From Odiellus spinosus (lineage: Eukaryota > Arthropoda > Arachnida > Opiliones > Phalangiidae), in the NCBI GenBank assembly GCA_963920705.1, contig OY987231.1, positions 20,499,024 to 20,563,023 on the forward strand: DNA of 64,000 nucleotides, given 5' to 3'. Made by a program: the position numbers and the translations under genes. Every line of letters starts with the position of its first letter. Within the stretch, counting starts at the first letter, position 1. A model generated the notes under the pieces. It worked only from the letters and a program-made list of their open reading frames with translations. It was not told the origin of the DNA and searched no databases. Shown here piece after piece: positions 128-61,278 of the stretch.

Positions 128-545
128 CAGAGGTATATAATAACCCCCTTCGGGGGGAAGTATGAAAGGTAGGCAAAATCGACGAACAACAAGTGCCCGG
201 CGTAAATCGCGGCGGATCGACACACCGCTTTACTCCCAAAAAATAGTTACACCATTTTGAACCTCACTAAATTTTCCCTACGCGCGCTTCCGGAACTCGC
301 GAGCTGAAGTCAACTTTCGACTCCATTTTAACAGACAGCCTGACTCCCGAGACAGGAAGTTCTAAACACAAATCGAGCCGTCTTGTTTATACAAAGACCA
401 TTTACTATAGTAGCGACATTGAGAAGTCCAGCGCGAGCTAGTGGCCTAGATAGTCAGCAGCGGGCTCTTGTTGTTCGTGATTTTTAGCATTGGTAGTATA
501 GGGGCTTTCATACTCCCCCCCGAAGGGGGTTATTATATACCTCTG
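128..545 (+). mobile_element. MITE family M7-B copy 1 (418 bp)
   Basis: Terminal inverted repeats begin CAGAGGTATATAATAAC. Each arm carries a CCCCC-TTCG-GGGGG hairpin. Flanked by the 7-bp duplication CCATGAC (121-127, 546-552). No coding capacity. The same element recurs at 37852, 55298 and 63778. Confidence 0.92.
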
Positions 546-552
546 CCATGAC

Positions 553-1752
553 ATATATTCATCCATTCTCTGCATAATGAACCAACATTTATTATCTAAT
601 ATTCACATATTCTTCTCTTCGACAAGAATATGTATATTTCTTTATGGCAGAAAAAAAAAACCTTTTGCCTCTTATCAAGGGGAGTTTTTCTTGATATTCA
701 AGATCTCTTTTCCCCCAGTATATGCTTACGTACGTCTTGGCGGGTCCTTAGGTTACCCTCCGCTTCTGGGCAATTCCCCGCGGGACAGGTTGCCCCATTT
801 CTCATCGGACGGGGACAATATAAAAACGGGGGCTAGTGCCCCACCTCGGCTCGTTCGCCGAAAGATATCTCCTTGGCTTCCGAGTATTGATTTCCCCCCC
901 TCATTAAGCGTCAGTCTTCCGTATTCGAAGCTCGGCCGATAAGGAGAGGCCGTAAGCGGTTTGACGAACCGATCGAAGCCCTCTTGACTGCGCTAAAGGT
1001 GTCTTATCAAATAACTACTTGTTGAAAGTTTTTGAAATGACCAAGCAACAGTCGATAGTGCGGCTAAACCAAATCTCCCGCCAGGGCTAAATCTTTTGTG
1101 AATTTCAAAGAGAGTTTTTGGGCTATAAAATGAAGGCCTGGCGTGGGGAGATTAGAACGGGCAATATACACCGGGACATAAAGTTTGCCATGTTGACTAC
1201 AGAAATTTCAAACACTTACTTTAATTATTTTAACAACTTTATTAAAACTTTAATAGTTCAGTTTTATGAATACGGCGCTAATGGGGTACCTTAAAAAAAT
1301 TAATTTTTAAGCCAGCATGAAAATAATTTTAAATCATTTTTAATTTTAAATTCCTCTTTCAAAAGCTTAAATTATTTTTTTCTGAAATTCTGATTAAACA
1401 ACTAAAAATGCAATGTTTTTATGATAAATACCTACTTTACCATTTGAGTTAGCATTGATATGACAAAGTGATTCAGATATCATGAAAAATTATATTAAAA
1501 TATCCTTTATTCATAACAAAATATATTATCAAAAAAAAAAAAAAAGCATTTTTTTGACTTGAGTTTCTTATAAGAACACGTCAACCCAGAGGTATAAAAT
1601 TTTGAATATGGAGTTTTAATAGTGTGATGAAACAAAAAATATAATCCGTAAGCCTTTGAAAAAAATGGTTTCAGCCTCCCTTTAAGATAGGTGTCCAATG
1701 GTTCAACTTAGTATTTCATTAACTTATGATTTGATTAATTTATCTTTCATAG
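553..1752. other. Non-coding stretch before first SerT exon
   Basis: Probably an intron of SerT, because the exon at 1753 needs an upstream partner. AT-rich, with an A run near 1531-1544. Positions 1582-1609 (CAACCCAGAGGTATAAAA...) recur at 38868-38895, so this is part of a dispersed repeat. No recognisable exon was found. Confidence 0.4.
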
Positions 1753-4700
1753 ACGTAACGTTCTACAGATTCACGAATCATCAGGAATTGGCGATATGGG
1801 TCCCATAAAATGGTCTTTGGCCTTATGTTTGTTCCTCGTCTTTTTCCTGGTGTACTTTTCGCTTTGGAAAGGAGTCAAGAGCTCTGGAAAGGTAAAACAG
1901 TGCTATTTTTTAACCGTACTACAACGAAATTTAAATAAACCTTTTCAAATTGTTAATACCATGACGATAAAGTTAATTAAGGATAAAGTTAATTAAGGAT
2001 CAATACTTCAAAGCTAAAATAATAGAACTTTTTCAGCGTTCAATTTCTAGTCGTATTCAATTAAGTCTGTACATGTAGTTATATAAAGCGGCTGAATAAT
2101 TCTTGAAATTCAGTCTCTAAATTTCTAAATGGGCACCAGGCTCTGAAATCCCAATCTTCCAGTTGCTCAACAACGAAACGGCGAAGGAATTTTCGCAAAC
2201 ACTTTCGAAAAATCCTTTCGCAGTTAATGAGAAATTTTCCGACTCCGAATGCGGGATTGCGTAGTGAGGACGGGGCCCAAGATTCTTAATATAAGACCCG
2301 AATGAGATTTACTACCAGAAAACGTTCTAAATGGGTCTTCCTGAACTATAAATTATTTCATCTGTTCGAATTTTAATTTAAGAAGCTTTTTGAAAACAAT
2401 ACGCATTTTATTCATTAGTTAACAAAATTATCGGGGCGGGCTTTTGAATTCATTAACTTCTAAGTGTAAGTCACTTCAAGCTTAAAAAAATGGGTAGGCA
2501 ACCTTCAGTATACCGGAAACGCAAAGATCCAAGATCCCATCTGCGCGTAAGTGAGGGGCGGATCACTACAAGACTGTACTAAAGTTATTATGTAACTGGT
2601 ATTTAGAATTACCAAAGGCTGTAATTAGTTCGGTATTAATCGATGTACAGATTTTACGGAAGTGGATAATACAATCCAATATATCCTTCAGGAAAGAAAT
2701 TTTTACCCCCTGGGCTGTTTCCGTTTAGTACCACTGAAGTGTCTACTATCATTATTTTTTTTAGGCGGTTTGGGTGACTGCGACACTTCCCTATGGTGTG
2801 CTCTTCATCCTACTAATCCGTGGTATAACATTAGACGGCGCCATGGATGGTATAATTTACTACTTGTATCCACAATGGAACAGACTAGGCGACAGCCAAG
2901 TAAAATAAGTCTATTCTAAAATAGCATTTATTATTTCACTGACATATCTTTGCCTCATCCGGTATAGGTATGGATAGACGCGGCGACTCAGATTTTCTTT
3001 TCGCTCGGACCCGGTTTCGGAACATTGTTAGCTCTTTCGAGTTATAACAAATTCCACAACAATTGTTACAAGTAAGTTAACCCTGAAGACGTTTAATTAC
3101 GCGAGTAATACGGCAATGCCGTTTCAATAACTTTCGCAGAGACGCGGTAATTACGAGTTCCATTAATTGCGCCACGAGTTTCTTAGCCGGATTCGTCATA
3201 TTCTCCGTTTTGGGTTACATGGCCCACGAAATGCATAAAGACGTTAGCAACGTTGTTACTGACGGTCCTGGACTGGTTTTCGTCGTTTATCCAGAAGCCA
3301 TTGCCACAATGACTGGTTCCGTTTTTTGGTCCATATTATTCTTTCTAATGCTTATAACTCTCGGACTCGACAGTACGGTAAGTTACTTTCAAATGAAAGG
3401 GTCTTTTATTTTACGCGAATGATATCTCATTTCAATTTCTGTAGTTTGGTGGGTTGGAAGCGATGATTACGGCTTTGTGCGACGAGTACCCCCACATTCT
3501 GAGGAAGAAACGCGAAATATTTGTAGCTGCCCTAGTCATTTTTATATATTTTTGCTCATTGGCCACAACAACCTACGTACGTTAATCTCGATAACGACAT
3601 AAACTATGGTTTAACTACTTGTTTAATTTTTGGGTTTTAATTGTTCCAGGGTGGGAATTATTTAGTTACTTTGCTCGATTCATACGGTACTTCGATGCCG
3701 CTACTGTTTGTGGTTTTCGTCGAGTCAGTCGCTGTTTGCTGGTGCTATGGCGCTCAACGTTTCTCCGAGCAAATTAAAGAGATGCTCGGTTTTCGACCTG
3801 GATTCTTCTGGAGAGCTTGTTGGACCTGCATCAGTCCTATCTTCATTTTCGTAAAAACAATTAAATTATTTCGCCCCGATTTGTATATAAGTTTGAAAAA
3901 GATAGCTTACTCAATTTAAAGTACAAATGAAAGATTGTGTTTTAATGCGAAATTTTCAGTGTATTAATGTTGTCCCATGTTTTCATTTAGTCTATATTCG
4001 TCGCGGCCATGGTAGAGCATAAAGACCTGATCTGGGAAGGATACGTTTACCCAAAATGGTCTATAATAGTTGGATGGACCCTAACATCTTCTGCTCTCAT
4101 CTGTATACCAGGTTATATGGTGTACAAAATCATCATTACCCCAGGAAGTTTTAAAGAGGTAAATAAATATTAACCTAGAAAAATTAACCTGTATCGTCGT
4201 ATTAGGAAGCTAGAAAACCCGTTATTTCAGATAGTTTTGTGTACTTCTAGTCAAATATATTATCTCGTTATTGGGCAACTTCGATTCGGTATTCGTACTT
4301 TGCACTTTTTCAGACATTTAAATCTCTGAATACACCCGGAATTTTCCGTTTTTTATCAGCCCATAACTTTCTTCAGCCGCTTTTTCACAAAAGACTTTTT
4401 TTGAAACCTTTTTCAAACCGTAATGAATGTTCAAATTATGTTTTAAACCTATTAATTTATTTTTTGGTCAAAGAAATGAAAGTATTTTTACAGCCGACCC
4501 TAAAATTTTAGAGCCTAAGTTATCCCATCTTTCCAAAAACGTTTTAAAGGGAGAATGAAAGGCCAAAACAACTTATTTTTAATCGATTAAGAACGCTATA
4601 ATAATGAGAAAAACAATAATATAACTGACCAAAAATATTTCGTTATTTTATAATCAATTTCCAAAGTTCCGAAACTTGCAGATCCTAAGCCTTGGCTGTC

Positions 4701-5124
4701 TAGCTCGGCAGCTGTTCTCTGTCGCCAATCACGAGCGAGTACGCGTATTTTTAAAATACGGTACTCGTTCCTGATTGGCGACAAGAACAACCGCGAACAT
4801 TAAAAAAAATACAGGTCGTGCTAGCCTAGTTCACCGAGCTAGGCAGCCTAGGCTTACCATCGGAACATTGGAAATTGATTATAAAATAACGAAATATTTT
4901 GGTGAGTTATATTATTGTTTTTCTCATATTATTTTAGCATTCTTAAGCGATTAAAAATAGGTTGTTTCGGTCTTTCATTCTCCCTTTAATGTAGTATCAA
5001 GTTTAACTTCAAAATTTCCTTATTTCAGCGTATTTTACGAAGCATGAAGCCGGAAGAAATTGCGGTTAAGAAGCCGGACAGTAAATGCAAAAGCTTGGGT
5101 GGTAACAATTTAGTTAGTGTGTGA
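1753..5124 (+). CDS. SerT: Sodium-dependent serotonin transporter, 3' eight exons (partial)
   Basis: SLC6-family plasma-membrane transporter that takes up serotonin with Na+ and Cl-. Exons read directly: 1753-1891, 2765-2899, 2968-3071, 3140-3377, 3445-3576, 3650-3850, 3991-4158, 5029-5124. All junctions are GT/AG and the phases agree across every join, giving 403 residues and a stop at 5122-5124. The protein starts just before TM4 ([17 protein letters not shown]), and runs through the TM6 unwound region ([20 protein letters not shown]), TM8 with the sodium-site motif [11 protein letters not shown]10, and TM12 (ITPGSFKE), ending in LVSV. From memory, the stretches [18 protein letters not shown] and [16 protein letters not shown] favour insect SERT over the dopamine transporter. 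The first exon begins with the third base of a codon, so at least one 5' exon is missing. A TTAA MITE fills half of the last intron. Assignment to SERT rather than another monoamine transporter is strong but not proven. Confidence 0.93.
4548..4985 (+). mobile_element. TTAA-1 MITE inside the last SerT intron (438 bp)
   Basis: Inverted ends AGGGAGAATGAAAGG...CATTCTCCCT between two TTAA copies (4544-4547, 4986-4989). TTAA target plus an AGGRR-type start fits the Kolobok-mobilised T2 MITEs known from Xenopus. The middle holds a further palindrome around 4720-4790. It occupies about half of the 870-bp intron. Confidence 0.88.
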
Positions 5125-5548: not shown

Positions 5549-5865
5549 CAAGAATCCATTCAGGTTCCATAAGAATATGGGAGCATAGCTTTAGCCTCTG
5601 GTACCATCCTCCCAAACTTTGTAACAAAAGTTCGTCTGCAATTTTCGCAACATTTGTACGCTTAGATGTTTTTTCGGTCGGCTCCATTTTTATTACCCAA
5701 AATATTATGTCAAGGCCGTTAGTGGCGCGTGTTAATAATATATTGTCACGAGCGAATTACTTGAAAAATCGATTCGAAGCAGACGAACTTTTGCTACAAA
5801 GTTTGGGAGGATGGTTATTGAATCGCGGCCCTCCCAAATTCTTATGGAACCTGAATGGATTCTTG
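5549..5865 (+). mobile_element. MITE family M7-D copy 1 (317 bp)
   Basis: Ends CAAGAATCCATTCAGGTTCC...GGAACCTGAATGGATTCTTG, flanked by the 7-bp duplication ATATTAC (5542-5548, 5866-5872). A near-identical copy is at 56324. Confidence 0.92.
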
Positions 5866-6204: not shown

Positions 6205-6487
6205 CCAAGAACTCATTTATTTATCTAAGAACATGGGAAGAACAATATTCTAAATCCGATATATAGATTCTCGAAAGTTTTAAAACAAAAATAATATAAT
6301 GAAATTACACAAGAGAGTTAGCCTCATTATAAAAATGAAACGCCAAAGTACGACGTAGTACTCTTTAGAGAGGTCTGAAAGTGAATAGCGGATGAATTTT
6401 GGGTACAAAGTATCAACATTCGACATTCATGGTAACAGAGGCTAATGTTGTATTCCCAGGTTCTTGTGTACTTGAATGATTTCTTGG
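6205..6487 (+). mobile_element. Degenerate M7-D-like inverted-repeat element
   Basis: Left arm CCAAGAACTCATTTATTTAT pairs imperfectly with the right arm ending GAATGATTTCTTGG. The termini resemble M7-D and the element at 27400, but no target duplication is preserved. Flanking sequence from 5873 to 7077 shows nothing else. Confidence 0.45.
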
Positions 6488-9377: not shown

Positions 9378-9707
9378 CAGAAGCCGATGAAACCCTCCTT
9401 TGAAGTCTATTACTCCCTGGTCTTGTCTACCCCTCTCTGTATGGGCTAGTCTCAAAAATCGCGATTTGTACGCCTCCGGACGGTATATGTTTTTGGAGTC
9501 CAGCGAATATCTCTAGCAACCTTGGAGTTCGTCGACCAAATGTCGTCCTATGTGGAGAGAGAGAGAATTTCCAATTTTCCGTAGACAGGGGGGTTTGAAG
9601 TAGGACCCCTCCGATCTCGTAAAATTGGGAATTTTACACATACAGAGAGGAGCGCTATATGGAACATTAGAGTAGTAGACTTCAAAGGAGGGTTTCATCG
9701 GCTTCTG
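9378..9707 (+). mobile_element. MITE family M7-A copy 1 (330 bp)
   Basis: Ends CAGAAGCCGATGAAACCC...GGTTTCATCGGCTTCTG. Target duplication GCGACAG (9371-9377, 9708-9714). The commonest element in the window, with 11 intact copies. Short ORFs inside are shared only because the DNA is shared. Confidence 0.93.
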
Positions 9708-13334: not shown

Positions 13335-13566
13335 TTGCATGGAGCTTTCGAACGGACAACTGGATTTTTAATCAATGAACCGAAGACATCGAAGGTGATT
13401 CATCCAAGACATAATTATCTGCCATGGAATAATACGCTCGCTTGTGGAATATCCAGCTCGTCAAGGATCTTGGGAATTTTAAGAACGGAAGATTGGATCA
13501 GGATGCTTGAAGATTGCTCAATTATGAAATTACGTGAATTTGTGAAATGTTCCAGTTTTGAAATCC

Positions 13567-14238
13567 AGTCGACGCCTGTCCAATCTACGCCTGTCCAATC
13601 TACGCCTGTCCAATCTACGCCTGTCCAATCTACGCCTGTCCAATCTACGCCTGTCCAATCTACGCCTGTCCAATCTACGCCTGTCCGATCTACGCCTGTC
13701 CGATCTACGCCTGTCCGATCTACGCCTGTCCGATCTACGCCTGTCCGATCTACGCCTGTCCGATCTACGCCTGTCCGATCTACGCCTGTCCGATCTACGC
13801 CTGTCCGATCTACGCCTGTCCGATCTACGCCTGTCCGATCTACGCCTGTCCGATCTACGCCTGTCCGATCTACGCCTGTCCGATCTACGCCTGTCCGATC
13901 TACGCCTGTCCGATCTACGCCTGTCCGATCTACGCCTGTCCGATCTACGCCTGTCCGATCTACGCCTGTCCGATCTACGCCTGTCCGATCTACGCCTGTC
14001 CGATCTACGCCTGTCCGATCTACGCCTGTCCGATCTACGCCTGTCCGATCTACGCCTGTCCGATCTACGCCTGTCCGATCTACGCCTGTCCGATCTACGC
14101 CTGTCCGATCTACGCCTGTCCGATCTACGCCTGTCCGATCTACGCCTGTCCGATCTACGCCTGTCCGATCTACGCCTGTCCAATCTACGCCTGTCCAATC
14201 TACGCCTGTCCAATCTACGCCTGTCCAATCTACGCCTG
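13567..14238 (+). repeat. 15-bp minisatellite, 45 units
   Basis: Unit TCTACGCCTGTCC(A/G)A. The array is 8 units with the A variant, then 33 with the G variant, then 4 with the A variant; the first unit is degenerate. Because 15 is a multiple of 3 and the unit lacks stops in several frames, long frames are open on both strands. The plus frame would read (Q/R)STPV repeats within 13335-14324. Confidence 0.97.
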
Positions 14239-14242
14239 ACAA

Positions 14243-15629
14243 GTCTGCGTCATTCCCTCATCATTGTTCCCCCTTCTCCCCCAAAAACAGTGGTTATGTC
14301 GAGAGGTTTGGTTCCTTCGTCTAATTAAACGGGCGGTCTACGATGGAATAGAAACCGAGACAAACTACTCTTGCACATTTTAGTGTTAAGCATACGCCTA
14401 CTTTTTAATATTAATATTAATTTTCGCCCTAGGTGCCCCCCCCCCCCCCCCCTACTCCAGTGGATCAACCGGATAAACGTATGTACACCTTCGAACTAAC
14501 GTTTCGTAAGGTTTTCATTTTCAAGCTTTGAATTAAGTTTCCCAGACTCAATGAGGTTTTCGCCCCGCGGTTAGGTTCTCCCACCCTCAAAGAGTCTATC
14601 CTACTAGTAGTTTGGAGGAACCATAGAGGGTGTAGCCAACTGACAGTAATCTCGAACAGAGACGCCAACACGGTGTCGTATATTATCTAGGGTCAGCTCA
14701 GATCCTCAAACATTATGTTGCCTGTTGAGCAATTACGCTCCATTTAGAGCGGTTTTCGATGTCGATTTTGGTGATAAAACGTTAGACTTGAGTGATAATT
14801 TTTGGCTGCTATTAAGTTTTGAAATAAAACAATCGCCTCAAAAAAGTAAGCATTTTTTTACAGTCGAAATCTTAAATTTAAAGTATTTATGAATGCAAGG
14901 GGTATTTATCATAACCCACTTAATTTTTATGTTAGGAAAAACTCTATACTAAAGAGTATGGCTAGTTTCAATTCTAGCATAACTTAGGCAGGTTTTTCTA
15001 TGAAAAAATATTTTTTAATTAACCTGCTGAGCCAGGTCGCCACCTAATTTTGCGATTTACAATCTGGAAAGGGGATACTGGCCTTACACGATTGCGCGTA
15101 GGAATACGAATATGGTAACGTCAACGTACACTAAATACTGAAACAGTCGACTCCTCCATCTATATTTCCTCCAAGCTCATAGTTAAGTTTCGCCTTTAAA
15201 TCAATTTATTTACTTTTCTAGTCTTCGATAATTTCTTGCAATTTTTTTCTTGTAATATTTCTTTAAAAAGTATCCCAACTTTTTAAAGTTTGGGTTTATT
15301 ATGAATTAATCCGCGTATGAGATATTCTAGTACAAGCTTTTATGAGTTGTACTCGTATGTATAATTTTAGATATTCCATATTTGAATTATTCGGGTTAAA
15401 GTTATTGTCTTATGGTTCATTTCGAATTTGACTTTTTCCGTTTTCGTACCGGAGGATTATGAATTAGATAATTAGTCCAGTTTTCAGATTTTGCTAGTTA
15501 TTCCGTTGATGAATTGTTCCGTTTATGATTTCGTTGATGAGTTGTTCCATTTATGATTTCTTCCAATTGCATTTTTTTCGTGAGTTATTCCGTTTTTTTG
15601 AGTTTTTTCAGGAAAGTTTTTGACGTATT
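14243..15629. other. Unassigned spacer with 17-C run
   Basis: AT-rich. A run of 17 C lies at 14436-14452. Nothing else recognised. Confidence 0.3.
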
Positions 15630-16230
15630 CCGATTATCGTATTTTAGCTTTGATTTATTTCGATTATCGTATTTTAGCTTTGACTTATTTCGATTATCGT
15701 ATTTTAGCTTTGACTTAATTTCGATTATCGTATTTTAGCTTTGACTTAATTTCGATTATCGTATTTTAGCTTTGACTTAATTTCGATTATCGTATTTTAG
15801 CTTTGACTTAATTTCGATTATCGTATTTTAGCTTTGACTTAATTTCGATTATCGTATTTTAGCTTTGACTTAATTTCGATTATCGTATTTTAGCTTTGAC
15901 TTAATTTCGATTATCGTATTTTAGCTTTGACTTAATTTCGATTATCGTATTTTAGCTTTGACTTAATTTCGATTATCGTATTTTAGCTTTGACTTAATTT
16001 CGATTATCGTATTTTAGCTTTGACTTAATTTCGATTATCGTATTTTAGCTTTGACTTAATTTCGATTATCGTATTTTAGCTTTGACTTAATTTCGATTAT
16101 CGTATTTTAGCTTTGACTTAATTTCGATTATCGTATTTTAGCTTTGACTTAATTTCGATTATCGTATTTTAGCTTTGACTTAATTTCGATTATCGTATTT
16201 TAGCTTTGACTTATTTCGATTATCGTATTT
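15630..16230 (+). repeat. 31-bp tandem array, about 19 units
   Basis: Unit CGATTATCGTATTTTAGCTT + TGACTTAATTT. The first two units and the last full unit are 30 bp (TTATTT instead of TTAATTT), while the internal units are nearly identical 31-mers, so the edges differ from a homogenised core. Confidence 0.96.
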
Positions 16231-16865
16231 TTTGAACATTATAACAAATTACTATTATTCCAATTATGGCTTATTCCTTGTATGAATTATTCCACCTTTC
16301 ATAATAAAAATATAATAATATAATTATAAATATAATAATACAATATGACTGTATCTAAATTAGTTCATAGTGATATTAATTGAACTTTGGTTATGCGTGT
16401 GTGCTGTACAAAGAACACGTGAGATATACCTACCATCAAATTATCACCCAGATAAATCTTTCCGAAGAATAAATATTTAATTTAATTTTTTTTTTGAAAT
16501 AAAGTTGCTATCTCGTACAAAAACAAAGACTAAGTTATAAATGTCCAGAAATTTAAATTTATTATTGAAACGAAAAGTTTCGTTTCAAAGCAAACAAAGC
16601 GAGAGTTCTGGAAATAAATAATACAATTTTTTTCCTCCCTTAAAACAACGTTTTAAAATTTAAATTTTCGCTCTCCTTTTCTCCGTTTCCTCGTATCTCG
16701 TAAATTAAGCTAGCGCGAATAACTCCGAGGGAAGTTCTCCGGCAGTAATGAGATTATGGATATTAAATAGGATTGGCCGGATTAAAAGTTGGCGCTCGAG
16801 ACAGAACTGGGAGTAAAATCGAGAAGGGGGGCGATCAAAACGCGTTTTCATGATTTCTTGTAAAT

Positions 16866-18364: not shown

Positions 18365-18701
18365 CAGAAGCCGATGAAACCCTCCTTTGAAGTCTATTAC
18401 TCCCGGGTCTTGTCTACCCCTCTCTGTATGGGTTATTCTCAAAAGGCGCGATCCGTACGCCTCCTAACGGTAGATATTTTCGGAGCGGGAGTTCGTCGAG
18501 CGAATATCTCTAGCAGCCTCGGAGTTCGTCCAAAAAACGTCGTCGTTTGTGGAGAGAGAGAATTTCCAATTTTCCGTAGACAGGGGGGATGAAGTAGGAC
18601 CCCTTCTAACTCGTAAAATTGGGAATTTTACCCATACAGAGAGGAGCGCTATATGCAACATTGGAGTAGTAGACTTCAAAGGAGGGTTTCATCGGCTTCT
18701 G
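18365..18701 (+). mobile_element. MITE family M7-A copy 2 (337 bp)
   Basis: Family ends CAGAAGCCGATG...CATCGGCTTCTG. Target duplication TTATTAT (18358-18364, 18702-18708), inside an ATT microsatellite that makes the exact duplication length less certain here. Confidence 0.92.
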
Positions 18702-19867: not shown

Positions 19868-20148
19868 CAAGGAGGATCAGAGAAGGAGAGGAAATGTGGG
19901 GACGGCGCGGTTCCTACTGCGTCGGCCTAAACTCCCACTCTGGGAGAACGGGGGTAGAGACGTTTCGTGGTAAAATGTTGTCGCGTGGGTAAAACGAATC
20001 CTTTATGAGACGCGCTAGCTAGCGACCACGTGACAATAGTTTACCTCGAGAATTTCCTATCCCCCCTTTCCACCCGAGTGGGAGGTTGGCTCTTCTCTCT
20101 CTAACTCAACGCAGCCCCACATTTCCTCTCCTTCTCTGATCCTCCTTG
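19868..20148 (+). mobile_element. MITE family M7-C copy 1 (281 bp)
   Basis: Ends CAAGGAGGATCAGAGAAGG...CTGATCCTCCTTG. Target duplication GTGCGAG (19861-19867, 20149-20155). The centre holds ...GCGCTAGCTAGCG... and inverted GTGGGAG/CTCCCAC blocks. Confidence 0.93.
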
Positions 20149-20614: not shown

Positions 20615-21047
20615 AGGGAGAATGCAACCTAATTACAAGTGACTTTTTATCGATTCCTTATCGTTTAAATAGGCCTAATCCACCGATAAAAAGTTTACAA
20701 TACAAATATTAAACTAGAAATAAATTTAAAACATACCCTGAAAATAGGCTTAGCGGGATTCATGGAGATCCTGAATTGCCCCCGTGTAAGGTCTAGTGAC
20801 CAATGAGCAAAGGCCCGTCGTTCACGCGAGATCTCCACGAGACTTACGTCGCGCGCGATTGGTCGCTAGACCTTACACGCGAGGAAATCAGGAGCTCCAT
20901 GAATCCCACTAAGCCTATTTTCAGGGTAAGTTTTAAATTTATTTCTAGTTTAATATTTGTTTGTAAATTTTTTAAATAGTGGATTAGGCCTATTTAAACA
21001 ATAAGGAATCGATAAAAAATCACTTGTTGTTAGGTTGCATCCTCCCT
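20615..21047 (+). mobile_element. TTAA-2 MITE copy (433 bp)
   Basis: Ends AGGGAGAATGCAACCTAATT...AGGTTGCATCCTCCCT between TTAA copies (20611-20614, 21048-21051). The arms extend about 170 bp and include ATCGATTCCTTAT and AGGCCTAATCCAC blocks. The centre is a palindromic block with GATTGGTCGCTAGACCTTAC. Confidence 0.92.
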
Positions 21048-21656
21048 TTAACCAAATATGACACTATTTGTGTCAAGAATAACTTCGAAACAACTTTAGA
21101 AAACTCCGAAATTTTTTTATTTCTTGCGGGAAAAGTGACATGTTGTTAAATTTTGTTTCCCATATTTAAGGACTGTCTATAAGAGAGCGAAAATAAAAAG
21201 AAAAACTTCAGACGTCAATGGTAACTTCTCACGATAAAAAAACTCGTGACACGTGGTGATTAAATGCTTCAAATCTAAAGGGTGGAAAAGATCGGACAGT
21301 ATTGGGGGGTTGTCTATAATCTTAAGTGTTGATCTGATTATTGGGCTAACATCTATGTACAAGATAAATTTTTAGCGCTGCCTTCCACTGTACAAATTTC
21401 AGGCGCCACTTAGGGACATGTCCTTTTTTTGACGCTTAAGCTTTTTACCGCGAAAGGCCGACATAAACGCGAGAACATATAGTTTATCCATCCCAATTTA
21501 ATTTTAAATTTTTAAAATAACGATGCAACTTTAAGAACTAAGATCAAGGGACTTTTGTAAAGATATTCGCCATGCTCAGTTACTTAATTACAATCAGAGC
21601 TACAAGTTAATAAGATCAGGCTTAATCAATATAACACGGGTCAATAAAAATACAAT

Positions 21657-23087: not shown

Positions 23088-23379
23088 CAAGAAGGATCAG
23101 ATAAGGAGAGGAAAAGTGGGGCTGCGTTGAGTTAGAGAGAGAAGAGCCAACCTCCCACTCGGGTGGAAAGGGGAGATAGGAAATTCTCGAGGTAAACTGT
23201 TGTCACGTGGTCGCTAGCTAGCGCGTCTCATAAAGGATTCGTTTTACCCACGTGACAACAATTTACCACAAAGGATCTCTACCCCCGTCTGTCCCCCGTT
23301 CTCCCACGGTGGGAGTTTAGGCCGACGCAGTAGGAGCCGCGCCGTTCCCACTTTTCCTCTCCTTATCTGATCCTTCTTG
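23088..23379 (-). mobile_element. MITE family M7-C copy 2 (292 bp)
   Basis: Ends CAAGAAGGATCAG...CTGATCCTTCTTG. Target duplication TTCACAC (23081-23087, 23380-23386). Opposite orientation to the copy at 19868. Confidence 0.92.
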
Positions 23380-24470: not shown

Positions 24471-24474
24471 GTAA

Positions 24475-24706
24475 AGTTTTTCAAATCATGTTTTTCAAAT
24501 CATGTTTTTCAAATCATGTTTTTCAAATCATGTTTTTCAAATCATGTTTTTCAAATCATGTTTTTCAAATCATGTTTTTCAAATCATGTTTTTCAAATCA
24601 TGTTTTTCAAATCATGTTTTTCAAATCATGTTTTTCAAATCATGTTTTTCAAATCATGTTTTTCAAATCATGTTTTTCAAATCATGTTTTTCAAATCATG
24701 TTTTTC
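24475..24706 (+). repeat. 14-bp tandem array, about 16 units
   Basis: Unit GTTTTTCAAATCAT, almost perfectly conserved. As 14 is not a multiple of 3 but the unit lacks stops, three frames stay open; these are not genes. Confidence 0.96.
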
Positions 24707-27881: not shown

Positions 27882-28218
27882 CAGAAGCCGATGAAACCCT
27901 CCTTTGAAGTCTATTACTCCCGGGTCTTGTCTACCCCTCTCTGTATGGGTTAGTTTCAAAAAGCGCGATTCGTACGCCTCCTAACGGTAGATATTTTCAG
28001 AGCGGGAGTTCGTCGAGCGAATATCTCTAGCAGCCTTGGAGTTCGTCAAAAAAACGTCGTCGTTTGTAGAGAGAGAGAATTTCCAATTTTCCGTAGACAG
28101 GGGGCATGAAGTAGGACCCTTCCGATCTCGTAAAATCGTGAATTTTACCCATACAGAGAGGCGCGCTATATGGAACATTAGAGTAGTAGACTTCAAAGGA
28201 GGGTTTCATTGGCTTCTG
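27882..28218 (+). mobile_element. MITE family M7-A copy 3 (337 bp)
   Basis: Family ends; target duplication GTAGTAT (27875-27881, 28219-28225). The right arm has one change in its terminal CGGCTTCTG block (TGGCTTCTG). Confidence 0.93.
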
Positions 28219-29235: not shown

Positions 29236-29575
29236 CAGAAGCCGATGAAACCCTCCTTTGAAGTCTACTAAACTCTAATGTTCGATATAGCGCTCCTCTC
29301 TGTATGGGTAAAATTCCCAATTTTACGAGATCGGAGGGGTCCTACTTCGTACCCCCCTGTCTACGCAAAATTACAAATTCTCTCTCTCCACAAACGACGA
29401 CGTTTTTCTGACGAACTCCAAGGCTGCTAGAGATATTCGCTCGACGAACTCCCGCTCCGAAAATATCTACCGTTAGGAGGCGTACGAATTGCTCATTTTG
29501 AAACTAACCCATACAGAGAGGGGTAGACAAGACCCCGGAGTAATAGACTTCAAAGGAGGGTTTCATCGGCTTCGG
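29236..29575 (-). mobile_element. MITE family M7-A copy 4 (340 bp)
   Basis: Target duplication CTAACAT (29229-29235, 29576-29582). The right end reads CTTCGG instead of CTTCTG, a point change in the terminal repeat. Confidence 0.92.
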
Positions 29576-30336: not shown

Positions 30337-30674
30337 CAGAAGCCGATGAAACCCTCCTTTGAAGTCTATTACTCCCGGGTCTTGTCTACCCCTCTCTGTA
30401 TGGGTTAGTTTCAAAAAGCGCGATTCGTACGCCTCCTAACGGTAGATATTTTCGGAGCGGGAGTTCGTCGAGCGAATATCTCTAGCAGCCTTGGAGTTCG
30501 TCAAAAAAACGTCGTCGTTTGTGGAGAGAGAGAATTTCCAATTTTCCGTAGACAGGGGGGTATGAAGTAGGACCCCTCCGATCTCGTAAAATTGGGAATT
30601 TTACCCATACAGAGAGGAACGCTATATGGAACATTAGAGTAGTAGACTTCAAAGGAGGGTTTCATCTACTTCTG
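30337..30674 (+). mobile_element. MITE family M7-A copy 5 (338 bp)
   Basis: Target duplication TTCCCTA (30330-30336, 30675-30681). Left arm has CAGAAGCCGATG but right arm ends CATCTACTTCTG, the variant seen on both arms of the copy at 39163. Confidence 0.93.
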
Positions 30675-34887: not shown

Positions 34888-34912
34888 TTAAGAGTGGGAA
34901 ACTAACTAAATA

Positions 34913-36636: not shown

Positions 36637-36969
36637 CAGAAGCCGATGAAACCCTCCTTTGAAGTCTACTACTCTAATGTTCGATATAGCGCTCCTCTGT
36701 ATGGGTAAAATTCCTAATTTTACGAGATCGGAGGCGTCCTACTTCATACCCCCTGTCTACGGAAAATTGGAAATTTTCTCTCTGCACGAACGACGACGTT
36801 TTTTTGACGAACTCCAAGGCTGCTAGAGATATTCGCTCGACGAACTCCCGCTCCGAAAATATCTACCGTTAGGAGGCGTACGAATCGCGCTTTTTGAAAC
36901 TAACCCATACAGAGGGGTAGACAAGACCCGGGAGTAATAGACTTCAAAGGAGGGTTTCATCGGCTTCTG
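36637..36969 (-). mobile_element. MITE family M7-A copy 6 (333 bp)
   Basis: Target duplication ACATTCT (36630-36636, 36970-36976). Confidence 0.93.
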
Positions 36970-37851: not shown

Positions 37852-38269
37852 CAGAGGTATATAATAACCCCCTTCGGGGGGAAGTATGAAAGCCCCTATA
37901 CTACCAATGATAAAAATCACGAACAACAAGAGCCCGCTGCTGACTATCTAGGCCACTAGCTCGCGCTGGACTTCTCAATGTCGCTACTCTAGTAAATGGT
38001 CTTTGTATAAACAAGACGGCTCGATTTGTGTTTAGAACTTCCTGTCTCAGGAGTCAGGCTGTCTGTTAAAATGGAGTCGAAGGTTGACTTCAGCTCGCGA
38101 GTTCCGGAAGTGTGCGTAGGAAAAATTTAGTGAGGTTCAAAATGGTGTAACTATTTTTTGGGAGTAAAGCGGTGTGTCGATCCGCCGCGATTTACGCCGG
38201 GCACTTGTTGTTCGTCGATTTTGCCTACCTTTCATACTTCCCCCCGAAGGGGGTTATTATATACCTCTG
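37852..38269 (-). mobile_element. MITE family M7-B copy 2 (418 bp)
   Basis: Target duplication GGTATAT (37845-37851, 38270-38276). Same length as copy 1 and opposite orientation; both arms keep the CCCCC-TTCG-GGGGG hairpin. Confidence 0.93.
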
Positions 38270-39162: not shown

Positions 39163-39499
39163 CAGAAGTAGATGAAACCCTCCTTTGAAGTCTACTACTC
39201 TAGTGTTCGATATAGCGCTCCTCCCTGTATAGGTAAAATTCCCAATTTTACGAGATCGGAGGGGTCCTACTTCATACCCCCTGTCCACGGAAAATTGGAA
39301 ATTCTCTCTCTCCACAAACGACGACGTTTTTTTGACGAACTCCAAGGCTGCTAGAGATATTCGCTCGACGAACTCCCGCTCTGAAAATATCTACCGTTAA
39401 GAGGCGTACGAATCGCGCTTTTTGAAACTAACCCATACAGAGAGGGGTAGACAAGACCAGGGAGTAATAGACTTCAAAAGAGGGTTTCATCTACTTCTG
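39163..39499 (-). mobile_element. MITE family M7-A copy 7, variant termini (337 bp)
   Basis: Both ends use the variant CAGAAGTAGATG...CATCTACTTCTG. Target duplication GTTTTAT/GTTTCAT with one change (39156-39162, 39500-39506). Confidence 0.91.
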
Positions 39500-39992: not shown

Positions 39993-40427
39993 AGGGAGGA
40001 TGCAACCTAACAACAAGTGATTTTTTTTATCGATTCCTTATTGTTTAAATAGGCCTAATCCACTTTTTAAAAAATTTACAAACAAATATTAAACTAGAAA
40101 TAAATTTAAAACTTACCCTGAAAATAGGCTTAGTGGGATTCATGGAGCTCCCGATTTCGTCGCGTGTAAGGTCTAGCGACCAATCGCGCGCGACGTAAGT
40201 CTCGTGGAGATCTCGCGTGAACGACGGGGCTTTGCTCATTGGTCGCTAGACCTTACACGGACGCTATTCAGAATCTCCATGAACCCCGCTAAGCCTATTT
40301 TCAGGGTAAGATTTAAATTTATTTCTAGTTTAATATTTGTATTGTAATCTTTTTATCGGTGGATTAGGCCTATTTAAACGATAAGGAATCGATAAAAAAT
40401 CACTTGTAATTAGGTTGCATTCTCCCT
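39993..40427 (-). mobile_element. TTAA-2 MITE copy (435 bp)
   Basis: AGGGAGGATGCAACCTAACA at the left and AGGTTGCATTCTCCCT at the right, between TTAA copies (39989-39992, 40428-40431). Central block inverted relative to the copy at 34453. Confidence 0.92.
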
Positions 40428-40936
40428 TTAAGATGGTGTCCAAATCGAGGCTTTTTAAGAGTTTCCTGGCATATTCGTGTCTAAGAGGACTTGGCAAAAA
40501 CTACCATCTCCTTTGTTTAATTTAATATTGCGTAACAATCCGCTACAGGTTTTGCCGTTAAGCCAACACCTCTTGAATAGAATGATGTATATATAAAGTA
40601 ATATATTTTATTTCAAGATCCCCTAACCCATATTATTCTTTATGGGTAAAGAAGACATTAGCCGTTTTTATAGTTCTCAAAGATAAGACAATAAAAACTG
40701 GCCTCTAGGGAGCTAGGGTAAAACGAGTTATATAAACTAAATTAACTACTATCGACTTTCCATTATTTTTTATCGGGGAAGGCTAAATATAGTTTAAAGT
40801 GTCCCCATTATGGACGCTCGTGCTACTAAAATAATGTACATTTTTTTTTATCGTCGACCTTTTCAATTTTTTGCTTGAGTAATATTATTATTATATATGC
40901 AAGCCTATGTTCCTGATAAGCGCTGCTCCATTAAAG

Positions 40937-41275
40937 CAGAAGCCGATGAAACCCTCCTTTGAAGTCTATTACTCCCGGGTCTTGTCTACCCCTCTCTGTA
41001 TGGGTTATTCTCAAAAAGCGCGATTCGTACGCCTCCTAACGGTAGATATTTTCGGAGCGGGAGTTCGTCGAACGAATATCTCTAGCAGCCTTGGAGTTCG
41101 TCAACAAAAACGTCGTCGTTTGTGGAGAGAGAGAATTTCAAATTTTCCGTAGACAGGGGGGTATGAAGTAGGACCCCTCCGATCTCGGAAAATTGGGAAT
41201 TTTACCCATACAGAGAGGAGCGCTATATCGAACATTAGAGTAGTAGACTTCTAAGGAGGGTTTCATCGGCTTCTG
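40937..41275 (+). mobile_element. MITE family M7-A copy 8 (339 bp)
   Basis: Target duplication ATTAAAG (40930-40936, 41276-41282). Confidence 0.93.
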
Positions 41276-42036: not shown

Positions 42037-42275
42037 CAGGGACGGAAATATGAAATTTTTCTTATTGGACAAATGTCCAGTAACCCCCCTTAAAAATTCA
42101 AAAGTTATCGGACATTTAACAAAATTACCGGACAATGCTACATTTCTTGTATTGAAAAGTACTTTTTTTTTATCGGACATTTGTCCAGTGACCCCCTCTT
42201 AAAAATAAAAAGTTATCGGACAATTGGAAAATTTATCGGACAATGACCAGTGACTTGTGCTTATTTCCGTCCCTG
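42037..42275 (+). mobile_element. hAT-like MITE (239 bp)
   Basis: Ends CAGGGACGGAAATA...TATTTCCGTCCCTG, flanked by ATCAAAGAC on both sides (42028-42036, 42276-42284): 9 identical bases, compatible with an 8-bp hAT duplication plus one chance match. Internal GGACA...TGTCC words resemble those of the element at 57738. Confidence 0.85.
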
Positions 42276-42760: not shown

Positions 42761-43279
42761 CTTGGATGAAATACAACTACATATGGATTCAGCACTTCAG
42801 CCTTCGGTAAGGCAATCGTCTCTCCACAACAAAACGTACTGAAATTTCTTGGGAGGGTAGGGGGAGAGGGGCCAAAAACTTTGGTGGGACAAATGTTTCG
42901 TCATAAGTCACGTGTTCGGGCATGCGCTTTTTACAGAAAAACAGACGACACAAGGGCGTCGTTATTTTCAAAAAGTTGACTTAATAAAGTCTTAATTTCT
43001 GAACTTAACGGTTACTATATAGTTTTCGTGAACGCTTTAATGGTAATTTATTTAAATTTATTTACTATTTTAGATAAACTGTTTAAAATTTATTATTTTT
43101 AAAGATGGGAAGGGTCAAACATTGTGTTTATCCCAACGCGTTCTGATTGGCTTAACATTTGTCCCACTAAAGCTGTAGTTCTCTTTAATCTCTTGTAGAT
43201 GGCGCTCCGTTTAAGGGACAAATTGTATTATCGTTTTCAGGGGAGTGCTGAATCCATATGTAGTTGTATTTCATCCAAG
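42761..43279. mobile_element. MITE family M7-E (519 bp), nested in a TTAA-2 remnant
   Basis: Ends CTTGGATGAAATACAACTAC...GTAGTTGTATTTCATCCAAG with arms of about 35 bp. Target duplication CCTGAAC (42754-42760, 43280-43286). The only copy in the window, and the only M7 family ending C...G without CA/TG. Confidence 0.88.
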
Positions 43280-43968: not shown

Positions 43969-44304
43969 CAGAAGCCGAAGAAACCCTCCTTTGAAGTCTA
44001 CTACTCTAATGTTCCATATAGCGCTCCTCTCTGTATGGGTAAAATTCCTAATTTTACGAGATCGGAGGGGTCCTACTTCATACCCCTGTCTACGGAAAAT
44101 TGGAAATTCTCTCTCTCCGCAAACGACGACATTTTTTTGACGAACTCCAAGGCTGCTAGAGATATTCGCTCGACGAACTCCCGCTCCGACAATATCTACC
44201 GTTAGGAGGCGTACGAATCGCGCTTTTTGAAACTAACCCATACAGAGAGGGGTAGACAAGACCCGGGAGTAATAGACTTCAAAGGAGGGTTTCATCGGCT
44301 TCTG
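43969..44304 (-). mobile_element. MITE family M7-A copy 9 (336 bp)
   Basis: Target duplication ATGTTAC (43962-43968, 44305-44311). Confidence 0.93.
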
Positions 44305-46693: not shown

Positions 46694-47129
46694 AGGGAGA
46701 ATGCAACCTAATTACAAGTGATTTTTTTTATCGATTCCTTATCGTTTAATTAGCCCTAATCCATCGATAAAAAGTTTACAATACAAATATTAAACTAGAA
46801 ATAAATTTTAAAACTTACCCTGAAAATAGGCTTAGCGGGATTCCTGGAGATCTTGAATCGCGTCCGTGTAAGGTCAAGCGACCAATGAGCAAAGGCCCGT
46901 CGTTCACGCGAGATCTCCACGAGACTTACGTCGCGCGCGATTGGTCGCTAGACCTTACACGCGAGGAAAACAGGAGCTCCATGAATCCCACTAAGCCTAT
47001 TTTCAGGGTAAGTTTTAAATTTATTTGTAGTTTAATATTTGTTTGTAAATATTTTCAGTAGTGGATTAGGCCTATTTAAATAATAAGGAATCGATAAAAA
47101 ATCACTTGTTGTTAGGTTGCATTCTCCCT
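46694..47129 (+). mobile_element. TTAA-2 MITE copy (436 bp)
   Basis: Full-length between TTAA copies (46690-46693, 47130-47133); same orientation and centre as the copy at 34453. Confidence 0.92.
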
Positions 47130-47760
47130 TTAAGGGGCTGAAGTTCTCAGAACCAAAGAACTAGAAACTGTCGAACTATAGGGCTTACTATTGTCTTTCA
47201 AAGCTGTATCGAAAAAAAAAAAAAAATGGAAACACTTTTCACATCCTTATATCCCATCGGGAAAAGTTGGCAGTGCGTAGTAGAATATCCCGAATCTACT
47301 CGAAAGTAGTGTCGAAAGGCTTATATGTTGGTCCAAGCTAAATCTGGCAGTGTTATTTTTTTGTTTTTCACTTTGCGCTTTTAGGATAAACTATATACGT
47401 TGTATAGAAAGCCGCGGTTTTTTGGCATGAACAAAAAAATGCAGTTGGATCGAAGCCTTGATAGCCGTTATAAGGAGAGAAATGTCTCAGCCATTCGCGT
47501 GTGTATTGTATACGCGGATGCGTATAACGTCATCCATTTCCTAAGCCATTGACGTCGTCCGACGCCAAGAAAGAGTAACAAAAGCCATAAAGGGACTTTG
47601 GTATAGAATATATTGACGAAGTTATTATAAATTCCCGTAGCGACGCTCGAACCTTGTATACGTAAGCGCGATAAAAACGGTCGATGCCTAAAAGCGAATG
47701 CCAAGCGAAAAAGAGAAAAAGAAACGTTTAATTTTTTTCGTATTCTTTCGCGCGGCGACA

Positions 47761-53816: not shown

Positions 53817-54153
53817 CAGAAGCCGATGAAGCCCTCCTTTGAAGTCTACTACTCCAATGTTCCATATAGCGCTCCTCTCTGTATGGGTAAAATTCCCAAT
53901 TTTACGAGTTAGAAGGGGTCCTACTTCATCCCCCCTGTCTACTGAAAATTGGAAATTCTCTCTCTCCACAAACGACGACGTTTTTTGGACGAACTCCAAG
54001 GCTGCTAGAGATATTCGCTCGACGAGCTTCCGCTCCGAAAACATCTACCGTTAGGAGGCGTACGGATCGCGCCTTTTGAGAATAACCCATACAGAGAGGG
54101 GTAGACAAGACCCGGGAGTAATAGACTTCAAAGGAGGGTTTCATCGGCTTCTG
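53817..54153 (-). mobile_element. MITE family M7-A copy 10 (337 bp)
   Basis: Target duplication ATAATAT (53810-53816, 54154-54160). Shares the GAGTTAGAAGGGGTCC variant with copies 2 and 11. Confidence 0.93.
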
Positions 54154-55297: not shown

Positions 55298-55714
55298 CAG
55301 AGGTATATAATAACCCCCTTCGGGGGGAAGTATGAAAGCCCCTATACTACCAATGCTAAAAATTACGAACAACGAGAGCCCGCTGCTGACTATCTAGGCC
55401 ACTAGCTCGCGCTGGATTTCTCAATGTCGCTACTCTAGTAAATGGTCTTTGTATAAACAAGACGGCTCGATTTGTGTTTAGAACTTCCTGTCTCGGGAGT
55501 CAGGCTGTCTGTTAAAATGGAGTCGAAGGTTGACTTCAGCTCGCGAGTTCCGGAAGTGTGCGTAGGTAATATTTAGTGAGGTTCAAAATGGTGTAACTAT
55601 TTTTGGGAGTAAAGCGGTGTGTCGATCCGCCGCGATTTACGCCGGGCACTTGTTGTTTGTCGATTTTGCCTACCTTTCATACTTCCCCCCGAAGGGGGTT
55701 ATTATATACCTCTG
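55298..55714 (-). mobile_element. MITE family M7-B copy 3 (417 bp)
   Basis: Target duplication TTTAGAC (55291-55297, 55715-55721). Same orientation as copy 2. Confidence 0.93.
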
Positions 55715-56323: not shown

Positions 56324-56639
56324 CAAGAATCCATTCAGGTTCCATAAGAATATGGGAGCATAGCTTTAGCCTCTGGTACCATCTTCCCAAACTTTGTAAC
56401 AAAAGTTCGTCCGCAATTTTCCCAACATTTGTACGCTTAGATCTTTTTTCGGTCGGCTCCCTTTTTATTACCCAAAATATTATGTCAAGGTCGTTAGTGA
56501 CGTGGGTTAATAATAGATGTCAGGAGCGATTTACTTGAAAAATCGATTCGAAGCGGACGAACTTTTGCTACAAAGTTTGGGAGGATGGTTATTGAATCGC
56601 GGCCCTCCCATATTCTTATGGAACCTGAATGAATTCTTG
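56324..56639 (+). mobile_element. MITE family M7-D copy 2 (316 bp)
   Basis: Target duplication ACTATAT (56317-56323, 56640-56646). Nearly identical to the copy at 5549, over 50 kb away. Confidence 0.93.
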
Positions 56640-56646
56640 ACTATAT

Positions 56647-57729: not shown

Positions 57730-57737
57730 GTTTGTAG

Positions 57738-58030
57738 CAGGCTGGGAAATAAGGCGGTTTTACTGGACAAAAGTCCAGTTTAAAAATTAGCTGGGCCAGT
57801 TTAAAAATTAAATGCTAGGGGGTCTACTGGCCTTGTGGCCAGTTAATTAATTCCAAAATTTTGTTTTGTTTCTTAGCCTACGTCATAGTGACGTCATAGT
57901 CCTACGTCATAATGACAGATTGTCAAGCTCATGAAAATTGTTACTGGCCAATGTCCAGTTTTTTAATAAAACTGCTTAGGCTCTACTGGCCACAAGTCCA
58001 GTTTAAAAATAATCCTTATTTCCCAGCCTG
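57738..58030 (+). mobile_element. hAT-like MITE (293 bp)
   Basis: Ends CAGGCTGGGAAATAAGG...CCTTATTTCCCAGCCTG. Perfect 8-bp duplication GTTTGTAG (57730-57737, 58031-58038), the hAT hallmark. Internal repeated palindromes GGACAAAAGTCC and GGCC(A)...GTCCAG. Confidence 0.92.
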
Positions 58031-59347: not shown

Positions 59348-59349
59348 TA

Positions 59350-60034: not shown

Positions 60035-60372
60035 CAGAAGCCGATGAAACCCTCCTTTGAAGTCTACTACTCCAATGTTCCATATAGCGCTCCTCTCTGT
60101 ATGGGTAAAATTCCCAATTTTACGAGTTAGAAGGGGTCCTACTTCATACCCTCCTGTCTACGGAAAATTGGAAATTCTCTCTCTCCACAAAGGACGACGT
60201 TTTGTGGACGAACTCCGAGGCTGCTAGAGATATTCGCTCGACGAGCTCCCGCTCCGAAAACATCTACCGTTAGGAGGCGTACGAATCGCGCCTTTTGAGA
60301 ATAACCCATACAGAGAGGGGTAGACAAGACCCGGGAGTAATAGACTTCAAAGGAGGGTTTCATCGGCTTCTG
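60035..60372 (-). mobile_element. MITE family M7-A copy 11 (338 bp)
   Basis: Target duplication TAGAAAC (60028-60034, 60373-60379). Confidence 0.93.
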
Positions 60373-60379
60373 TAGAAAC

Positions 60380-60990
60380 GTATAAATTTTGCAACAGCTG
60401 AACCACATTACACCATCACAAATCTACATCTTTCCACAAAACCACTTTAATTCTAAAAATATTTCGCAAAAGCCTCCTGAGTAACTCTTCAAAAGTTATT
60501 AAAAAAAAAAAAAAAATGAACTGGATATTTCGTATCTCCAAAGTTCTCAGACAGTAATTAGCCAGAGACTCTCGAGAAACTAGCTGTACTGGCGATACTC
60601 GAAGTTTAGTCTCCCTAGGGTTTCCATATGCTTGTACTGAGAAGCGAGTTGATAGAGAGAAACGTGCCTTCAAAACTGAACCCTTTACAAAAGTCGAAAG
60701 CGTTTGGAGAGGCATCATTTCGATGACTGCCGGGGTCTTTCAGCGAAATGAAAAGATGTCTCATTCAGCGTTCCGAACTCTATTTGACCTTTTCCGCTTA
60801 CGTTAGCTACTTTTTACCAACATCGCGCGCCAGCCATAGATGATAAAAAAAAAAGGAAAAATCTGAAAAAATAAAGGAAGGAAGTCACTATGAAAGAAGT
60901 TCTCTTGTATTCCCAATTCTGCAAGATAGTTTCTTCGATTTCTTTTTGTACCTCTAGCCATCTACTACTAGTAAACGAATCGATGTCTAG
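60380..60990. other. Unassigned spacer
   Basis: A minus-strand frame at 60416-60718 has no family support. Nothing else recognised. Confidence 0.3.
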
Positions 60991-60997
60991 ATCTGGT

Positions 60998-61278
60998 CAA
61001 GGAGGATTAGACAAGGAGAGGAAATGTGGGGCTGCGTTGAGTTAGAGAGAGAAGAGCCAACCTCCCACTCGGGTGGAAAGGGGGGATAGGAAATTCTCGA
61101 GGTAAACTGTTGTCACGTGGTCGCTAGCTAGCGCGTCTCATAAAGGATTCGTTTTACCCACGCGACAACATTTTACCACGAAACGTCTCTACCCCCGTTC
61201 TCCCAGAGTGGGAGTTTAGGCCGACGCAGTAGGAACCGCGCCGTCCCCACATTTCTTCTCCTTGTCTAATCCTCCTTG
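60998..61278 (-). mobile_element. MITE family M7-C copy 3 (281 bp)
   Basis: Ends CAAGGAGGATTAGACAAGG...CTAATCCTCCTTG. Target duplication ATCTGGT (60991-60997, 61279-61285). Confidence 0.93.

Follow-up and report, generated by a model that had tools for sequence, protein, structure and literature searches.

Shared 7-bp Target-Site Duplications and a Palindromic Target Motif in Five MITE Families of Odiellus spinosus

Five families of miniature inverted-repeat transposable elements (MITEs), named here M7-A to M7-E, share 7-bp target-site duplications (TSDs) and a palindromic target motif in Odiellus spinosus. The families were described in a 64,000-nucleotide stretch of DNA (the window), part of contig C7 of the 443-Mb genome. 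The shared 7-bp duplication is a solid observation, and it is likely that the families were moved by a common lineage of transposases. With slightly less than even confidence, we favor a single hAT-like lineage of the Ac/Tol2 type that would cut its target with a 7-bp stagger. We infer both the superfamily and the service of one lineage to all five families from TSD length and target sequence.

Results

Insertions with 7-bp Duplications in the Window and the Genome

The initial annotation had reported 20 insertions with 7-bp duplications in the window: 11 of M7-A, three each of M7-B and M7-C, two of M7-D, and one of M7-E. All were located, in the same numbers per family; 19 duplications are perfect and one has a single mismatch (Table 1). 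That first list had missed a truncated fourth M7-B copy at 63778 and a solo M7-D-like end at 6429–6486. The elements are 281–519 bp long, with a mean within-family identity of 95%–98% for M7-A to M7-D, and up to the first mismatch their terminal inverted repeats (TIRs) measure 32 bp (A), 41 bp (B), 34 bp (C), 28 bp (D), and 36 bp (E). Between families there are short, weak sequence matches and nothing more. The M7 families are MITE-like, non-autonomous DNA transposons, as had been proposed: the elements are short, with TIRs and a duplication of fixed length, and M7-A to M7-D have near-identical copies. Exact matches to a 30-bp M7-A end number 17,113 in the genome, 8,485 of them forward and 8,628 reverse (control, 0). 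An exact 21-base M7-A end gave no matches in IMG/VR, and one match of an M7-A end to a Solirubrobacterales metagenome-assembled genome, in a genome contig collection, showed no further similarity and was taken as chance.

The window was also scanned without the first list of elements, for 14-bp inverted repeats with up to two mismatches that enclose an element of 60–4000 bp and are flanked by identical direct repeats of 2–12 bp; sites were printed for repeats of 5–10 bp. Twenty-three matches had 7-bp repeats, and 18 of these started with CA. Together with the CT-ended element at 42761–43279, the 18 cover all but one of the 20 insertions; the exception, 39163–39499, is the one with the mismatch. 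CA-initial matches at 5, 6, 8, 9, and 10 bp were few and represented other repeats or the microsatellite copy at 18365. Random flanks placed 280–520 bp apart shared 7 bp in 80 of 199,908 trials.

Copies elsewhere were found by aligning the family sequences to the window and a genome sample of 200 kb (150 kb of contig C1, picked for its richness in M7-A ends, 30 kb of C7, and 20 kb of C5) plus eight 3-kb loci around M7-A ends. Repeated rows were discarded, as were copies lying 25 bases or less from where a stretch ended, which reduced M7-C from 13 to 10. Nineteen of the 20 window insertions counted as full length, as did 62 copies outside the window. The latter comprised 44 with perfect 7-bp duplications, nine with one mismatch, and nine without a duplication, so that the 81 insertions divide into 62, 10, and nine, respectively. 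Perfect 7-bp duplications occurred in every family (A, 36/50; B, 7/8; C, 9/10; D, 9/12; E, 1/1). A perfect 8-bp repeat was found at none of the 81; the microsatellite copy, however, fits a repeat of 10 bp. Variable duplication length, which had been named as the observation that would speak against a shared mechanism, was not seen among the sampled genomic copies, yet nine of the 81 lack a duplication. One M7-D copy that lacks a perfect duplication shows a 6-bp repeat shifted by one base; its edge may be misplaced.

A second list-free scan covered the C1, C7, and C5 stretches and the window, for elements of up to 6 kb starting with CA, CT, or TA, with 13-bp TIRs (one mismatch) and direct repeats of 5–9 bp. 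It returned 48 CA...TG matches at 7 bp, with 0 at 5 bp, 3 at 6 bp, 5 at 8 bp, and 1 at 9 bp. By inspection, three of the five 8-bp matches are palindrome artefacts; one of the 48 at 7 bp spans two adjacent M7-A copies. Two further end types with 7-bp duplications, CAACGCCT (298 bp) and CATGGGCC (591 bp), lie outside the five families with one match each, and by inspection carry three and four, respectively, of the four motif bases described below.

One insertion is nested. At 16130–16401 of the joined C1 stretch, an M7-C copy is flanked on both sides by CCTGAAT, preceded by tcttatggaa and followed by ggattcttg, and the piece flanking it aligns to M7-D. Because CCTGAAT occurs once in the M7-D consensus, near its end, and twice around the nested copy, M7-C must have inserted into an M7-D element and duplicated 7 bp.

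Table 1. M7 Elements in the Window
Element	Positions	Strand	TSD	Remarks
M7-A MITE	9378..9707	+	GCGACAG	
M7-A MITE	18365..18701	+	TTATTAT	within TTA microsatellite, length ambiguous
M7-A MITE	27882..28218	+	GTAGTAT	
M7-A MITE	29236..29575	-	CTAACAT	
M7-A MITE	30337..30674	+	TTCCCTA	
M7-A MITE	36637..36969	-	ACATTCT	
M7-A MITE	39163..39499	-	GTTTTAT/GTTTCAT	one mismatch
M7-A MITE	40937..41275	+	ATTAAAG	
M7-A MITE	43969..44304	-	ATGTTAC	
M7-A MITE	53817..54153	-	ATAATAT	
M7-A MITE	60035..60372	-	TAGAAAC	
M7-B MITE	128..545	+	CCATGAC	41-bp TIR with CCCCC-TTC-GGGGG hairpin
M7-B MITE	37852..38269	-	GGTATAT	
M7-B MITE	55298..55714	-	TTTAGAC	
M7-B, fourth copy	63778..64000	+		cut off by window end
M7-C MITE	19868..20148	+	GTGCGAG	
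M7-C MITE	60998..61278	-	ATCTGGT	
M7-C MITE, CAAGAAGG variant	23088..23379	-	TTCACAC	
M7-D MITE	5549..5865	+	ATATTAC	
M7-D MITE	56324..56639	+	ACTATAT	
Solo M7-D-like end	6429..6486	-		followed by GTATTAC
M7-E element	42761..43279	+	CCTGAAC	ends CT...AG; sole full copy in sample

A 13-bp Palindromic Target Motif

The base counts first reported for the duplications are exact, with A at position 6 in 17 of 20 and T or C at position 2 in 13 and 5 of 20. When sets of 20 7-mers were drawn at random from the window, none of 20,000 draws attained the observed T2/A6 score of 30; the mean was 12.6. The palindrome N-T-N-N-N-A-N deduced from these counts is real and incomplete: an equally strong T/A preference three bases outside the duplication was missed. 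With each target divided into two half-sites, in which negative positions lie outside the duplication, the empty sites of the window have T(-3) in 33 of 40 (P = 4e-11) and T2 in 30 of 40 (P = 2e-8); any other bias is weaker (P = 0.005 at best). Both preferences recur beyond the window, in 43 distinct insertions with perfect duplications (T2 64/86, P = 3e-15; T(-3) 61/86, P = 4e-13), along with weaker biases for G1 (28/86, P = 5e-4) and A(-1) (42/86, P = 0.001).

The motif is also present without M7-A, since the 16 new insertions of the other families have T2 in 25 of 32 half-sites (P = 2e-7) and T(-3) in 20 of 32 (P = 5e-4). Taken by family outside the window, M7-A is strong at T2 and T(-3), and M7-B has 7/8 at each; M7-D has T2 in 12/12, with T(-3) not among its seven best rows, and the motif of M7-C is weak (T(-3) 7/12, six new insertions). 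The 61 pooled insertions (122 half-sites) contain T(-3) in 91, A(-3) in 18, T2 in 90, A(-1) in 54, and G1 in 39. The full consensus is T-N-A-[R-T-N-N-N-A-Y]-T-N-A, with a core T-NN-[NTNNNAN]-NN-A that forms a 13-bp palindrome. The initial annotation had drawn from length and bias that one transposase superfamily moved all the families. The length holds in the genome sample and the bias is common to the non-A families; the motif is weak in the six new M7-C insertions and M7-E has one copy. We infer a single superfamily and do not assert it, because the parents were not found.

A separate element at window positions 62108–62571, of the form CAGGGTGACC...TG, has a 6-bp duplication (ATGGAG), and in its flanks the four T/A contacts of the M7 motif are all present, with a spacing of 6 bp.

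Comparison with Known Target Sites

Target sites printed in published accounts were compared with those of M7. Tol2 has the consensus TNA(C/G)TTATAA(G/C)TNA around its 8-bp duplication (PMC2753552), and in hATx-6 the second and seventh bases of the duplication are biased, with flank position +3 tending toward A (PMC8721813). P and 1360 targets tend to ANAGT/ACTNT (PMC3276498) and those of Galileo to AANGT/ACNTT (PMC4168063). Judged from these printed sequences, the base at -3 is what separates hAT targets (T) from P-group targets (A), T2 being common to both. M7 agrees with the printed hAT sites at this position and disagrees with the P group, and its extended motif leans toward hAT. Tol2 and hATx-6 resemble M7 in a symmetric target with T(-3), T2, and a weak A(-1); they and Tgf2 differ from it in their 8-bp duplication and in having a known transposase.

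Our tentative preference for an Ac/Tol2-type hAT arises because the M7 half-site equals the printed hAT half-site with the spacing reduced by one. M7-A to M7-E would then be non-autonomous cut-and-paste elements with 28–41-bp TIRs, mobilized in trans by one lineage whose two active sites would make their cuts 7 bp apart. The grip on the target would be symmetric, with contacts in each half to a T three bases beyond the cut and to a T at the second base within it, and weaker preferences at A(-1) and G/A(1). The half-site TNA[(G)T... would thus be that of Tol2 and hATx-6, with their 8-bp spacing shortened by one.

Across the hAT superfamily, duplications range from 5 to 8 bp. The normal length is 8 bp (PMC3942097, PMC10368747), with TIRs of 10–25 bp (PMC3942097). 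In the Repbase Update paper, an example command extracts hAT families annotated "7-bp TSD," which implies entries that share the M7 length (PMC4455052). Of the first 12 bases of the M7-B end, CAGAGGTATATA, 10 agree with the left end of Tgf2, CAGAGGTGTAAA (PMC4890040), and these include all of the first seven; Tgf2 is a Tol2-type hAT with an 11-bp TIR.

Evidence from Local hAT and P Elements

A search of the genome gave 150 scored matches (of 220 candidates) to PF05699, the hAT dimerization domain, and 68 to PF12017, the P transposase; the loci of 10 of the former and three of the latter were opened. The abundance of hAT dimerization domains speaks for a hAT-like mover. Target sites of local families served as controls. 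Listed were 100 of the 159 ends of the CAGTRGCGCCGCCAG hAT lineage, giving 94 distinct half-sites, and 28 of the 45 ends of a local P family, giving 26. The P half-sites show G1 in 19/26, T2 in 18/26, and C8 in 19/26, and no bias at -3 (T 8/26, A 7/26), so that A(-3) is not universal in P. Compared with M7, this family differs at T(-3) (P = 4e-5) and has G1 in 19/26 against 39/122.

Several observations weigh against a hAT-like mover. The half-sites of the CAGTRGCGCCGCCAG lineage show no bias at the two main positions (T(-3) 28%, T2 35%); T3/A6 is weakly favored, and positions -2, -1, 1, and 8 are slightly biased. Fisher tests against M7, on counts from rounded percentages, gave P = 6e-12 for T(-3) and P = 2e-8 for T2. 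T2 is therefore common to M7 and the local P family and not to this hAT lineage. Five of the hAT loci opened (L030, L033, L034, L036, and L040) have 8-bp duplications and inverted repeats of 11–15 bp, whereas M7 has 7 bp and TIRs of 28–41 bp; 7-bp hATs are rare. MITEs may, however, lengthen their TIRs. The ends of M7-E are CT...AG, unlike the CA...TG of M7-A to M7-D. The M7-B ends are the ones that were compared with known ends, and their resemblance to Tgf2 fails the Repbase family rule of equal TSD length and at most one mismatch in 11 (PMC4455052). Finally, no element combining M7 ends with a transposase was found in the opened loci, the end patterns, or the longer copies.

The controls alone do not choose between hAT and P, because T2 is shared with the P family and T(-3) occurs in neither control. 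The choice of hAT consequently rests on the printed Tol2 and hATx-6 sites. The controls do suggest that M7 was moved by neither the CAGTRGCGCCGCCAG hAT lineage nor the local P family.

The five hATs have clear ends and 8-bp duplications: CAGTGCCGGATTA/CCGCGCAA, CAGTGGCGCCGCCAG/GGCATTCG, CAGTGGCGGATTTAC/GCCCCAGT, CAGTGTTGTGC/ATTGCCGG, and CAGGGGCGCCGATC/GTATACCG. Each matches both the hAT dimer domain and DUF4371, although in L036 the DUF4371 match falls below the cut-off. Locus L032 has hAT-like ends without a TSD, and L031, L035, L037, and L041 have no convincing ends. None of the ten hAT loci has M7 ends at its own termini. In L036, a perfect inverted repeat (CTTGGAGGAAGTATGTTAGATGGA) and a 6-bp direct repeat (GGTGAT) at 1358–5009 enclose the hAT with its own 8-bp duplication; the inverted-repeat ends resemble those of M7-E (CTTGGATG).

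Alternative Movers

A doubtful but serious alternative is that P-superfamily transposases of the 1360/Galileo kind moved M7 with a 7-bp stagger. The ends of 1360/Hoppel and Galileo are CA...TG. Duplications of 1360 have a modal length of 7 bp (274 of 279 insertions) with the motif GTTNAAC (PMC3276498), and Galileo mostly 7 bp with GTANTAC/GTATTAC (PMC4168063); both fit NTNNNAN, sharing with M7 the length and the T2/A6 palindrome, and Galileo also has long TIRs. In length and in its long TIRs, M7 sits closer to this branch of P than to hAT, 1360 and Galileo being the clear precedents for 7 bp. P elements of Anopheles, with TIRs of 27–31 bp, and the local P family, with an imperfect TIR of about 30 bp, resemble M7 in this feature, and the local family shares its T2 preference. 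In Anopheles gambiae, several P-MITE families in one genome are tied to one transposase superfamily, as proposed here; those MITEs differ in their 8-bp duplications and known masters. P transposases are present in the genome, one of the 68 matches lying in an intact 929-aa THAP/P frame. The printed P-group targets, however, have A(-3) (ANAGT, AANGT); of the 122 M7 half-sites, 91 carry T there and 18 carry A. 1360 and Galileo are Drosophila elements with a known transposase.

The local P elements also disagree with M7 in duplication length. Two copies of the local family were opened (L038 on C4 and L039 on C16); they are 2498 bp long and 99.92% identical, with ends CATAGATATG and 8-bp duplications (GCTCCTAC and AATAAATA). 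A second P element, L042, contains the 929-aa frame, with THAP, HTH, RNaseH, and GTP-binding-insertion domains. Its ends match each other weakly and, by inspection, are bounded by CCAAGGCTT, a repeat of 9 bp. Neither of the two families opened has M7 ends at its termini or a 7-bp duplication. The C4 copy (C4:8486700-8491500) lies inside an M7-C copy, so that its 8-bp duplication falls in M7-C sequence; this M7-C copy is itself flanked by a 7-bp duplication, ATTTAAG. The local P element contains a 14-base stretch like an M7-C end, which was attributed to chance.

A transposase with a 7-bp stagger from a different superfamily, Dada-like or as yet undescribed, is an unlikely though conceivable mover. 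None of the readable local duplications (five hAT, two P) is 7 bp, neither local target logo has T(-3), and none of the 28 M7-A and 29 M7-B ends with foreign continuation lies, compared by eye, at a distance of 5 kb or less from any of the PF05699 and PF12017 matches listed. This sampling is small, at 10 of 150 hAT and 3 of 68 P matches, and the motif already matches the printed hAT half-site. Dada elements have duplications of 6–7 bp. The initial annotation had called 7 bp unusual and placed P and Dada closest. The length is rare but documented, in 1360, in Galileo, and by the Repbase hAT command; Dada fits badly, because Dada-U6 and Dada-U1, in the accounts of these families, lack TIRs and target small-RNA genes (U6, U1, and tRNA genes among the Dada families described there), whereas M7 has long TIRs and scattered targets. 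That the five families are unrelated, with length and motif alike through coincidence or alignment artefact, is highly improbable: sequences match across families in short, weak stretches alone and the M7-C motif is weak, but the 7-bp length appears in all five families by list-free scan and in one nested insertion, and the non-A families show the same motif.

Search for a Parent of the M7 Elements

The end patterns used in the search consisted of the first 14–15 bases of M7-A or M7-B ends with a forced foreign continuation, a design blind to any parent whose TIR is the same throughout; 19 of the 29 M7-B places look like MITE copies with a shortened hairpin. Longer M7-D copies, with roughly 400 bp of extra interior, were found at 98450–99155 and 109223–109845 of the joined C1 stretch (C1:1954450-1955155 and C1:1965223-1965845) and on C178 at about 22200–22930, the last with GGCATAG on both sides. 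The interior holds an open frame of about 100 aa with 134 genome matches, many without stops. The frame has no Pfam match, and its best PDB match has E = 0.95. It was rejected as the N terminus of a transposase, the C178 frame ending after about 100 aa and returning to the M7-D right end. A 311-aa frame on C8 runs into an apparent copia-like reverse transcriptase.

One copy of this frame (C1:15566468-15566752, minus strand) has a B-type end, CAGAGGTATATAATA, with foreign continuation about 0.5 kb upstream on the same strand (C1:15567208-15567234). Nesting or a B/D chimera is possible; a rough estimate puts the chance of such proximity at about 1%, given 29 and 134 places.

Other Features of the Window

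Two CAGG-ended, MITE-like elements, at 57738–58030 (8-bp duplication GTTTGTAG) and 42037–42275 (9-bp duplication ATCAAAGAC), are likely to be ordinary hAT MITEs. A palindromic repeat of about 400 bp, with ends CTCCCTTTAA or similar, occurs at 20644–21054, 34484–34894, 40024–40434, and 46726–47136 and is probably another MITE family. Minisatellites at 13429–14330, 15563–16340, and 24420–24769 have units of 15, 31, and 14 bp, the first with long spurious reading frames in several frames. A Pfam scan of ten open frames of the window matched four: two SLC6-type symporter pieces, an HD domain, and FAM101, which mark the host as an animal. No match to Rfam was found in the window at gathering score.

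Implications

M7 is a well-documented group of orphan MITEs of a known kind. Open-access papers yielded no account of MITEs that combine the 7-bp length with this motif, the motif not having been searched as text and Repbase entries lying outside the search. Duplication length and target motif are among the main clues for classifying orphan MITEs. Both are common to no fewer than five families, including one of very high copy number; one parent would therefore classify much of the mobile DNA of this genome. If that parent is a hAT, the M7 families would provide a natural test of a change in stagger without a change of contacts. A more specific proposal, which we consider rather unlikely as a whole, is that a hAT-like grip with contacts every four bases (TNNNTNNNANNNA) shifted its stagger from 8 to 7 bp and produced many thousands of insertions in at least five MITE families, while the sampled local hAT and P elements keep at least 8 bp and are without the outer contact. 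If true, target recognition would stay tied to the edges of the cut while the distance between the active sites changes.

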